This document shows, one piece after another, positions 2,980-15,553 of a stretch of 22,061 nt of DNA. This DNA is from a virus: the IMG/VR virus record IMGVR_UViG_3300025161_000277, positions 1-22,061 of that record. The stretch is one strand, 5' to 3'. The notes beneath the pieces were generated by a model. It was not told the DNA's origin, did not search any database, and saw only the letters and a program-made list of their open reading frames with translations. The translations under genes were made by a program, and so were the position numbers. Within the stretch, counting starts at the first letter, position 1. Every line of letters begins with the position of its first letter.

Positions 2980-3249
2980 ATGATCCGCGAGCTGCGCATC
3001 CTGTGGCGGCTGCGGCCGCTCGTTGAACGATTCAAGGAGCTCAGCAAGATGAAGTTCTCTGTCAATGTTGCGATTCAGATGCTGGCGTTGGCGGCGCAGG
3101 GGTTGAACGCCACCATGGACCTGCTGCCGCCGCGCGGGCGGTTCTGGGCGATGGTCGGGTTGTCCGCTGTGCAGGGCGTGGCCGCCGTGCTCGCACACTT
3201 TGCCAACCCGGATGGCACGCCGGCCGAGGCGCCGTACATCAAGAAGTGA
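2980..3249 (+). CDS. Small membrane protein, possible holin
   Basis: From ATG 2980 the protein is 89 residues. GAGG lies 5 bases upstream of that start. A second in-frame start at 3049 (MKFSVN) has the better Shine-Dalgarno sequence AAGGAG, 9 bases upstream, and would give a 66-residue product. GTG at 2962 is a third possibility. The C-terminal half has two hydrophobic stretches (about residues 26-42 and 58-76) separated by DLLPPRGR, and ends in a polar lysine tail. Size, two membrane segments and two possible starts resemble small phage holins, but no lysin gene is adjacent, so this is inference. The stop overlaps the GTG start of the downstream methyltransferase by four bases. Confidence 0.6.
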   Translation: MIRELRILWRLRPLVERFKELSKMKFSVNVAIQMLALAAQGLNATMDLLPPRGRFWAMVGLSAVQGVAAVLAHFANPDGTPAEAPYIKK

Positions 3250-4505
3250 AACCCGACCTCCACGTCCAGCGTTGGCCCACCGAGCGGCTGATTCCCTTCG
3301 CCCGGAATCCGCGCACGCACACTGAGGAGCAGGTGGCCCAGGTGGCGGCGTCGATCGCCGAGTTTGGGTTTGTGAACCCGATCCTGGTGGGGTCCGACGG
3401 CGTGATGATCGCCGGCCACGCGCGGCTGGTGGCGGCGCGGAAACTGGGCCTGGCCGAGGTTCCGGTGATCGTGCTGGACCACCTGACCCCGGCGCAGCGG
3501 CGGGCGCTGGTCATCGCCGACAACCGGCTGGCTCTCGGCGCGGGCTGGGATGAGGAGCTGCTGCGGTTGGAGCTCGAGGCCTTGCGGGAGGAGGACTTCA
3601 ACCTCGACCTGCTGGGCTTCGGCGAGGAGGAGCTGGAGGCGCTGCTGGCGGAACCGGAGGCCGAGGCTGCGGGGCTGACGGACGAAGACGCCGTGCCGGA
3701 GGCGCAGGAGGCGGCGGTCACGGTGCCGGGTGAGGTTTGGATTCTTGGGCAGCACCGCCTCTTGTGTGGGGACGCGACGCAGATCTCTGATGTGGAGAAG
3801 GTGCTGGCCGGAGGTCTGGCGGACATGGTCTTCACGGACCCGCCGTACAACGTGAACTACGGCGCGACGATGAAGGACAAGTTGCGGGGAAAGAAACGCA
3901 AGATCGCCAACGACGATCTCGGTGATGGCTTTGAGAGCTTCCTCCGCGACGCCTGCACGAATATCCTCACCGTCACCAAGGGCGCCGTCTACCTCTGCAT
4001 GTCGTCGTCCGAGTTGCACACCCTCTACCGCGCGTTCACCGAGGCGGGCGGCCACTGGTCCACGTTCCTCATCTGGGGCAAGAACACCTTCACGATGGGG
4101 CGGTCGGATTACCAGCGGCAGTATGAGCCGATCCTCTACGGCTGGAAGGAAGGCGCGGAGCATTACTGGTGCGGCGCCCGCGACCAGGGCGATGTGTGGT
4201 TTGTGAACAAGCCCGTCGCCAACGACCTGCACCCGACCATGAAGCCGGTGGAGCTAATCGAGCGGGCGATTCGGAACTCGAGCAAGAGCCGGGATACGGT
4301 ATTGGATCCTTTCGCCGGGTCGGGCTCGACGCTGATCGCCTGCGAGAAGACCGGCCGGCAGGCGCGGCTGATTGAGTTGGAGCCGAGGTACTGTGACGTC
4401 ATCGTGCGGCGGTGGCAGGAGTACTCGGATCGGCAGGCCATGCTGGATGGGGATGGGCGTAGCTTCGAGGAGGTGGCCGATGAGCGGCGGCGAGTACCAG
4501 CGTGA
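3246..4505 (+). CDS. ParB-domain/DNA methyltransferase fusion (beta-class, DPPY type)
   Basis: This 419-residue protein has the same architecture as the gene at 1-1554. An N-terminal ParB-like domain carries AGHARLVAARKLG near residues 56-68 and ADNR near 91-94. The methyltransferase domain has motif IV DPPYN (198-202) and SAM-binding motif DPFAGSGST (354-362), again beta-class order. The DPPY tetrapeptide is typical of N6-adenine methyltransferases, so adenine methylation is inferred. The N-terminal domains of the two genes are nearly alignable residue for residue while the catalytic halves differ strongly, so specificities probably differ. The start is GTG, overlapping the stop of the membrane-protein gene by four bases (GTGA). 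Its 3' end overlaps the next gene by 26 bases. No cognate endonuclease is seen. Confidence 0.9.
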   Translation: MKPDLHVQRWPTERLIPFARNPRTHTEEQVAQVAASIAEFGFVNPILVGSDGVMIAGHARLVAARKLGLAEVPVIVLDHLTPAQRRALVIADNRLALGAGWDEELLRLELEALREEDFNLDLLGFGEEELEALLAEPEAEAAGLTDEDAVPEAQEAAVTVPGEVWILGQHRLLCGDATQISDVEKVLAGGLADMVFTDPPYNVNYGATMKDKLRGKKRKIANDDLGDGFESFLRDACTNILTVTKGAVYLCMSSSELHTLYRAFTEAGGHWSTFLIWGKNTFTMGRSDYQRQYEPILYGWKEGAEHYWCGARDQGDVWFVNKPVANDLHPTMKPVELIERAIRNSSKSRDTVLDPFAGSGSTLIACEKTGRQARLIELEPRYCDVIVRRWQEYSDRQAMLDGDGRSFEEVADERRRVPA

Positions 4506-14214: not shown

Positions 14215-14478
14215 GTGGTGCAAGCCTTCGGCCGCGAGGTTCTTTACTGGCCCGAGGCGGGCGGCGAGGCCGCGATCCGCGCGGTGTTTCAGCCGGCGCG
14301 GGAGGCCGAGGACGCTTCGCCGGGCGTCTACGCGGTGCTGTTTGTGCGGCTGGCGGATCTGCCCGGCGCACCGCGGCGCGGGGACGAAGTCGAGATCGGC
14401 GGCGTTCGTTACAAGGTCTTCGACATCGAGCTGGATGCGGAGGGCGCCGCCGTGTTCAAGCTCCGCAAGACAGGTTGA
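14215..14478 (+). CDS. Head-tail joining protein-like (gpFII position)
   Basis: From GTG 14215 this is an 87-residue, strand-rich protein: VLYWPEAGGEAAIRAVFQPA, YAVLFVRLADLPGAPRRGDEVEIGGVRYKVFDIELDAEGAAVFKL. The GDEVxIGGxxYKVxDIxxD pattern is typical of small phage head-tail joining proteins of the lambda FII type (assigned by position and fold pattern). No ribosome site precedes 14215. The open frame continues upstream through GGWPAAVKDLDAA, which looks like genuine protein, to CTG at 14167, which overlaps the capsid stop and follows a purine-rich AAAGGGA. The true start may thus be the rare codon CTG (103 residues). Confidence 0.7.
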   Translation: MVQAFGREVLYWPEAGGEAAIRAVFQPAREAEDASPGVYAVLFVRLADLPGAPRRGDEVEIGGVRYKVFDIELDAEGAAVFKLRKTG

Positions 14479-14501
14479 CTTGTGGAAGATCTTCCACAAG
14501 T
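14478..14501. repeat. Perfect 24-base palindrome, first of two
   Basis: Arms ACTTGTGGAAGA and TCTTCCACAAGT are perfect complements with no loop, centred on AGATCT. It begins with the last base of the joiner stop codon and lies between that gene and the convergent hicA. No T run follows on either strand, so a simple intrinsic terminator is doubtful; a dimer-binding site or bidirectional RNA hairpin is possible. Confidence 0.85.
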
Positions 14502-14517
14502 TGAGTCGGCGGGAACG

Positions 14518-14541
14518 ACTTCCGCCAGATCTGGCGGAAGT
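14518..14541. repeat. Perfect 24-base palindrome, second of two
   Basis: Arms ACTTCCGCCAGA and TCTGGCGGAAGT pair perfectly, again 24 bases long, centred on AGATCT and with ACTT/AAGT ends like the first. The centres of the two are 40 bases apart. The inner arms differ between the two, so they are not a simple duplication. Confidence 0.85.
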
Positions 14542-14556
14542 GGAGCGGGATGGCAG

Positions 14557-14580
14557 AGTAGCCTCGACGCGGAGGCTACT
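14557..14580. terminator. Hairpin overlapping the hicA stop
   Basis: AGTAGCCTC (14557-14565) and GAGGCTACT (14572-14580) form a 9-pair stem with a 6-base loop. The right arm contains the hicA stop codon (14576-14578). It may stop convergent transcription, but no U tract follows on either strand, so the terminator assignment is tentative. Confidence 0.4.
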
Positions 14581-14824
14581 GCTCCGTGTAGAACAGAGGC
14601 TTCAGTGCCGATTCTGGAACGAACCGCAGCGCCTGCCGGTAAATGGCCCGCAAGGTCCCCTTGTCCACTTCTCGATGCAGAGGAATGGTCAGGATTTGAC
14701 GGGCATCGCCTGCCGACAGACGGAGAAGCTTCACATGGCTGCCGCGCTGTGCCGAGGGCCGAAACCCCAATTCCCCAAAGATGCGGAGCAGATCGTCTCC
14801 GGAGAGGCTCTTGAGCTTCGGCAT
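14576..14824 (-). CDS. hicA: HicA-family toxin
   Basis: This 82-residue protein starts MPKLKSLSGDDLLRIFGELG and has FRPSAQRGSHVKLLRLSAGD, in which GSH (His30) is the catalytic region of HicA toxins; ILTIPLHREVDKGTLRAIYRQA is the second conserved part. The family adopts a double-stranded-RNA-binding-like fold and cleaves mRNA. The ATG overlaps the last base of the hicB stop (TGATG), so translation is coupled. It faces the head-tail joining gene across the palindrome region. Confidence 0.93.
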   Translation of the reverse strand: MPKLKSLSGDDLLRIFGELGFRPSAQRGSHVKLLRLSAGDARQILTIPLHREVDKGTLRAIYRQALRFVPESALKPLFYTEQ

Positions 14825-15045
14825 CAGGCGGCCGCGTCCAGCTCCAGGGTGGCGACGATGGTCGGGTGCTCAGCCAAGCCCAGTTCCGCCAGGTCCTCCC
14901 CTTCCAGGTGCAGGTGGATGGCCTCCCGGATGTTGGCGGCTAATTCATCGAGGGTCGGCGCCTGCGTCACAACCGGCAGGTCCAGGCATTCGGCAACATA
15001 CTGTTGCTCGCCCTTTGAAATGCGCACTTGGATGGTTCGTTTCAT
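14824..15045 (-). CDS. hicB: HicB-family antitoxin (short type)
   Basis: The 73-residue protein starts MKRTIQVRISKGEQQYVAEC, with YVAECLDLPVVTQAPTLDEL as the HicB core fold, followed by AANIREAIHLHLEGEDLAELGL. There is no added DNA-binding domain, so this is the short HicB form often encoded upstream of HicA. AGGTG lies eight bases upstream of the ATG. The order is antitoxin first. It blocks HicA by direct binding. Confidence 0.9.
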   Translation of the reverse strand: MKRTIQVRISKGEQQYVAECLDLPVVTQAPTLDELAANIREAIHLHLEGEDLAELGLAEHPTIVATLELDAAA

Positions 15046-15097: not shown

Positions 15098-15553
15098 ATG
15101 GCTACGGTTCGGGTGTATGTGAAGAAGCAGCTCCGGCTCGACCGGCTCAACTTCCGCCAGCGGCAGATGTATGAGCTGGGCAACTCGGGCGTCGCGGCGG
15201 TGAAGTCGCGGCTGGCGGCGGCGCGGGATCCCACGGACGCTCCAGCCAAGCCGTTGACCAAACGCTACGCGATCTTCAAGACCCGCAAAGGCCAGAGCAA
15301 CCGCCGCAACCTGACTTTCACCGGCGACCTGCTGCGCAACTTCCAGGTGCGCACCGTGAGCGAGAACCGTGCCAAGGCCGGCGTTTCGACTCGCAAGGAG
15401 CGCATCAAGGCCTGGGCCAACCAGAAGCGCGAGGAGTGGATGGTCTTCTCGCCGAAGAACAAGGCGGCCGTCGTTGAAGCCGCGCGGAAGATGCTCGAGG
15501 CCATGAAGCCTCGTTTGCTCGTCGAGCGCGCCTTGGGAGGTAAGCAGCGATGA
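15098..15553 (+). CDS. Probable tail-completion/minor tail protein (gpZ position)
   Basis: This 151-residue basic protein contains LTFTGDLLRNFQVRTVSENRAKAG and EEWMVFSPKNKAAVVEAARKML. The TGxLLRxFxV pattern with a later WxxxSxxxxxxV helix resembles small phage virion-morphogenesis proteins that join head and tail. The place corresponds to lambda Z. No Shine-Dalgarno precedes the ATG at 15098, which sits inside the 5' region of the hicBA cassette; insertion there may have removed it. The stop overlaps the next start by four bases (ATGA). Assignment is by position and pattern. Confidence 0.65.
   Translation: MATVRVYVKKQLRLDRLNFRQRQMYELGNSGVAAVKSRLAAARDPTDAPAKPLTKRYAIFKTRKGQSNRRNLTFTGDLLRNFQVRTVSENRAKAGVSTRKERIKAWANQKREEWMVFSPKNKAAVVEAARKMLEAMKPRLLVERALGGKQR

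Follow-up and report, generated by a model that had tools for sequence, protein, structure and literature searches.

Paired palindromes at a phage head-closure gene are probable elements of a site array for a ParB-like protein

In the window, i.e., the whole stretch of 22,061 nucleotides of viral DNA that was analyzed here, two perfect palindromes (P1 and P2) lie at the end of a head-closure gene, and they are probably elements of a DNA site array that is read by a phage protein of the ParB/Noc/KorB type, for which they would act as parS- or operator-like loading sites. Both belong to a palindrome family with recurrent locations in related phages of soil bacteria, the members of which are self-complementary beyond what coding needs and have centers that match the recognition helix of a phage ParB-like protein. 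A parB-like helix-turn-helix (HTH) gene is absent from the 22-kb window, in which two ParB_N-methyltransferase genes are present, and the relation between P1/P2 and a ParB-like protein thus rests on the relatives. We infer, furthermore, that P1 and P2 may control the late operon.

P1 (ACTTGTGGAAGATCTTCCACAAGT, positions 14478-14501) and P2 (ACTTCCGCCAGATCTGGCGGAAGT, 14518-14541) are perfect loopless palindromes of 24 bp, which are spaced by 40 bp and have the ACTT/AAGT ends and the AGATCT center in common. The analysis thus recovered the pair of equal length with shared ends and center exactly where an earlier note on this DNA had placed it. The view of that note that a chance origin is very unlikely was borne out as well, as perfect palindromes with arms of at least 11 bp were absent from all 60 runs in which the window was simulated with a first-order Markov model, compared to the two that are seen, and base composition lets one expect 0.004 perfect 24-bp palindromes in the window. 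P1 is the first array element, has a center of the class AARATYTT (which goes with FGN/Gln helices) and leads the conserved arrays, whereas P2 is the second element, with a center of the class CARATYTG (FGGH helices). The upstream gene (14215-14478, plus strand) is Hc1-like and matches phrog_82 with an E-value of 1.6e-9; the final base of its stop codon TGA (14476-14478) is the first base of P1. The location between a head-tail joining gene and hicA, as it had been described, is thereby corrected in that P1 shares the stop base of the Hc1-like gene. The hicA toxin gene (14576-14824, minus strand; PF07927, E-value 9.8e-14) is cargo at the place where elements 3 and 4 are missing. With a 4-bp overlap it adjoins a hicB-like antitoxin gene (14824-15045, minus strand), which was assigned by position and reading frame and for which Pfam gave no hit at the threshold applied. 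The next late gene (15098-15553, plus strand) follows directly after the array in relatives, as seen from the tblastn placement of homologs, by which most relatives were also found to be without hicA. A third hairpin (14557-14580; AGTAGCCTC-GACGCG-GAGGCTACT, with arms of 9 bp and a loop of 6 nt) is present, as noted before, but stands outside the ACTT family and overlaps the hicA stop; in L003 its stem is conserved and its loop is altered. A scan for intrinsic terminators (G+C-rich hairpin plus U tract) yielded nothing at P1 and P2, in agreement with the lack of U tracts noted earlier. Rfam covariance models, applied to the window at the gathering score, matched tRNA only and left P1 and P2 unmatched; a tRNA-Met gene is located at 2787-2861. 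The two methyltransferase genes of the window are fusions of ParB_N with an N6/N4 methyltransferase (1-1554 and 3246-4505). In the ParB_N part of the first one lies GGTGATCGTGCTCGATCACC (213-232), and near-identical inverted repeats occur in G204 and G666, whereby a conserved peptide alone may account for this recurrence.

The family pattern is ACTT-N6-RATY-N6-AAGT. Of 80 capsid relatives, the loci of which had been chosen by the capsid protein alone, 31 have arrays of one to four family elements at one and the same junction, where the head-closure gene is followed by the next late gene. P1 occurs exactly in 22 IMG/VR contigs and P2 in four, in one of them (L106) within a parB-like gene; the looser family pattern was found in 62 stretches and its CAATTG type in 63. 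Each element consists of a 10-bp stem around RATY (GATC, AATT, AATC, GATT), and both arms and centers vary between elements, with most stems still complementary. Where an array is present, it begins at the stop codon and the order of elements is conserved, with losses, whereas in relatives without an array, such as L041, the two flanking genes directly adjoin or overlap each other (TGATGG). Each of three center classes tends to be represented once in an array, and P1 and P2 stand for two of these. The search for the same arms in related phages and hosts, as proposed in the earlier note, thus found clear conservation, the opposite of what that note had named as speaking against its claim. In a few contigs, sites are located upstream of a putative small-terminase gene instead. 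A perfect palindrome of 38 bp in L047 (7600-7637) resembles joined sequencing-adapter (Tn5 end) sequence.

In the window, elements 1 and 2 have been kept and hicBA occupies the place of elements 3 and 4. The arrays predate hicBA, which is seen only in the lineage of the window, and relatives carry the array with no gene in between. Given this order of events, the suggestion that the palindromes are a scar of hicBA insertion is unsupported, and what is left of it is that the junction does admit cargo, namely hicBA here and an SDR gene in L136. HicB was rejected as the binder, and P1/P2 as its operator, as both sites are located past the 3' end of hicA instead of upstream of hicB, and the same array is present in relatives without hicBA. 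The more general proposal of protein-binding sites is supported, with a phage ParB-like protein in place of HicB as the likely reader. It might also be that the palindromes are recombination sites at which hicBA and other cassettes enter. This would fit with the position of hicBA at the place of elements 3 and 4, with the SDR gene of L136 (4459-5889), which lies between two copies of element 1, and with L128 (1-4300) and L145, where the array and the start of the next gene are duplicated around approximately 3.8 kb of host-like genes. However, there are only three such cargo cases, hicBA does not have palindrome copies on both sides, and the duplication in L128/L145 may be a real junction or else a product of assembly or homologous recombination. 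As the parB copy of the palindrome and the HTH match would also be left unexplained, we regard this explanation as most improbable. The insert in L136 contains a decayed palindrome.

Outside the junction, family palindromes were found mainly within a phage ParB-like gene, which encodes a ParB_N domain and an HTH. The copy in this gene is in frame and is located in the disordered linker immediately N-terminal to the HTH, where it encodes LPENFPEV, LVEDLPQV, LPPDLAEV, LPLNCAEV, and similar peptides. When 43 distinct ParB-like genes were each recoded synonymously 1000 times, the linker palindrome reached significance (p<=0.01) in 34, 27 of them at 0/1000; the parB-like stretch of L138 was left out of these statistics. 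Some ParB-like relatives are without a linker palindrome. It is also present in cultured Pseudomonas, Vibrio, and Staphylococcus phages (phiAH14a, eugene 12A10, and EW, respectively), where it surpasses every other inverted repeat in the gene (0/60). In distant phages, the same parB position is occupied by unrelated arm sequences. The ParB-like protein matches PF02195 (ParB_N) just over the cut-off and PHROG 12047 ("ParB-like partition nuclease") with an E-value of 8.6e-35, and a profile search yielded matches to ParB, Noc, and Spo0J. Its AlphaFold model (pLDDT 78.7, with low confidence at linker residues 115-118 and 125-128) has Noc, ParB, and KorB as best matches among solved folds and places the HTH after ParB_N, with helices at 136-144 and 149-161, the latter being the recognition helix. 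The motifs GERR and ENE.RK are conserved in the protein alignment. Among the inspected neighbor genes of the parB-like gene, no parA stood out.

The recognition helix and the center of the palindrome go together. Among the genes in which the palindrome is significant, helices of the type [YF]-x-R-A are paired with the center CAATTG in 10 of 10 cases; Y-x-Q-A helices go nearly always with A-RATY-T, and FGGH helices with CCAGATCTGG-like sites. The ParB-like proteins of L106, L110, and L165 have helices of the types FGGH (Gln), FGN (Gln), and FDS (Arg), respectively. The sole Gln case with CAATTG is L221, where a second palindrome (AAAATTTT) adjoins the HTH. For Arg/Gln versus center, Fisher's test calculated by hand yielded approximately 6e-8, with genes treated as independent although they are related. 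In a tree built from the N-terminal domain only, Arg/Gln changed eight times, and the four supported independent Arg/Gln pairs out of four agree with the center (p 0.125), which is too few for significance; because L221 has two palindromes, it was recoded by hand for this tree test. The Vibrio phage eugene and L179 violate the Arg/Gln rule. In ParB/Noc, Arg/Gln swaps in the recognition region set the reading of G versus A (PMC7383237); that change probably sits at a different helix position from the one in the phage ParB-like protein. Since the site and the HTH are close neighbors, the match between helix and center could alternatively be due to co-inheritance.

In G203, G204, G210, and G670, palindromic sites are on the same replicon as the parB-like gene. 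G203 and G204 each combine a single parB site with an array that includes the class of the parB site, and G037 has a single site of the CAATTG class at each of the two places. In the more distant phage G670, the parB site is private (CGGCAA-AATG-TTGCCG), and a single copy that matches it is located 31 kb away, where tail genes meet. The arrays or second sites of G665 and G668 are without the class of their own parB. In phiAH14a, G672, and G675-G678, no second copy of the linker palindrome was found within three mismatches, and therefore the junction array is not general. In L266 (G665:6703-6832) and L273 (G668:7668), GTGGAA-TT-TTCCAC palindromes precede the parB-like gene by about 1.3 kb and might serve a different regulator as operators.

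Relative to transcription, the two copies of the same site in G204 are oppositely oriented, which favors a function as DNA over one as RNA. The alternative is that the elements form a row of hairpins with 10-bp stems and RAUY loops in the late mRNA, which would protect or separate the capsid part of the transcript, and that the parB copy is a hairpin likewise; the earlier note had also considered RNA hairpins at transcript ends. Both strands do fold strongly, with z values of -5.0 and -6.3, and the arms vary yet remain complementary. However, among 58 distinct elements the mismatches have no clear G-U bias (21 G-U versus 14 A-C, with many G-G and C-C), the commonest element retains a G-G mismatch, loop and ends are strand-symmetric, and U tracts are absent. 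Together with the two orientations in G204 and the HTH match, which hairpins would leave unexplained, this makes an RNA function less likely than a DNA site, and we judge it to be rather unlikely.

It could also be suggested that the palindrome is a selfish mobile mini-element of 24 bp that lands harmlessly in linkers and junctions, comparable to the palindromic elements of Rickettsia, which are found within and outside coding genes and leave the frames open. In-frame copies do occur in different genes and frames, as in the parB-like gene, in L164 (inside a ParB_N-methyltransferase gene, in another frame), and in L129 (in frame in a primase-like gene), and copies occur at gene junctions as well. 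But the copies per genome are few and their places fixed, and the same parB position with unrelated arms in distant phages and the helix-center match speak against such an origin, so that we consider it very unlikely. The Rickettsia elements are, moreover, longer and dispersed over many genes, whereas the phage sites are tied to one protein family.

According to the preferred explanation of a ParB-type site array, the HTH of the ParB-like protein would recognize the center of the palindrome, whereby Gln154 would prefer a AAGATCTT center and Arg at this position CAATTG. The protein might load at the array as a clamp and then slide or block, and might in this way keep the late operon quiet, or mark or partition the phage DNA. 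An array with three classes would suit any parB allele that is present in a mosaic phage. As the array of the window retains the FGN and FGGH classes only, the complete phage would be expected to have a parB-like gene of one of these two classes. Reading of the center alone gives no explanation for arms that vary and are yet self-complementary; such arms may be required for binding or may be maintained by template-switch mutation. That it is a widespread principle for ParB-like proteins to keep their own target palindrome in front of the DNA-reading helix, whereby target and protein would stay linked when recombination occurs, and for mosaic phages to keep "universal" arrays with all specificities in the late operon, seems possible rather than probable.

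The ParB-parS and Noc-NBS systems, which are CTP-dependent clamps, resemble the phage system in having a ParB_N fold followed by an HTH and small clusters of palindromic sites. They differ from it in that the phage sites have at least 24 bp, other sequences, and several specificity classes per array, that a phage copy is built into the linker codons of the protein, and that the arrays are located in the late operon. In Bacillus subtilis, one parS lies within spo0J (parB) itself. KorB of the plasmid RK2 is a ParB-family clamp and a repressor with long-range action from its sites (PMC11790492). The fold matches of the phage protein include KorB, although the KorB/OB system needs KorA at target promoters and has another operator sequence; no counterpart of KorA was identified for the phage protein. 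Because the array lies inside the late operon, KorB-like silencing is favored as a first model. The phage ParB-like proteins of PHROG 12047 are of the same family as the parB-like protein; open-access papers yielded neither a binding site for this group nor a description of such palindromic sites. To our knowledge, ParB-like proteins are common in phages, and their targets and roles are mostly not known. Should the target indeed be the linker palindrome, the binding sites of many phage ParB proteins would be readable from their own genes, which would provide natural pairs of helix residue and site for studying changes of DNA-binding specificity and would suggest that phage late genes are controlled by a clamp mechanism.

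The known hosts are mostly Bryobacteraceae (Acidobacteriota), and parB-like genes are rare in Acidobacteriota, with 2 of 396 genomes at large and 11 of 237 in the family. Among named genomes, the palindrome pattern matched Bryobacteraceae and further MAGs of Acidobacteriota. It has zero to four copies per genome and a reversed control gave no matches, and therefore it is a phage feature and not a host repeat; a dispersed repeat of the REP type was ruled out by these whole-genome counts. A match of the DNA pattern in Gemella (L111) looks unrelated and constitutes an AT-rich terminator-like site, and the palindromes on a contig of a gammaproteobacterial symbiont (L115:5500-6900), which has repetitive open reading frames, are probably of an unrelated type. 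On a Hyphomicrobium contig (L114:3900-6900), decayed ParB-like genes likewise have linker palindromes.
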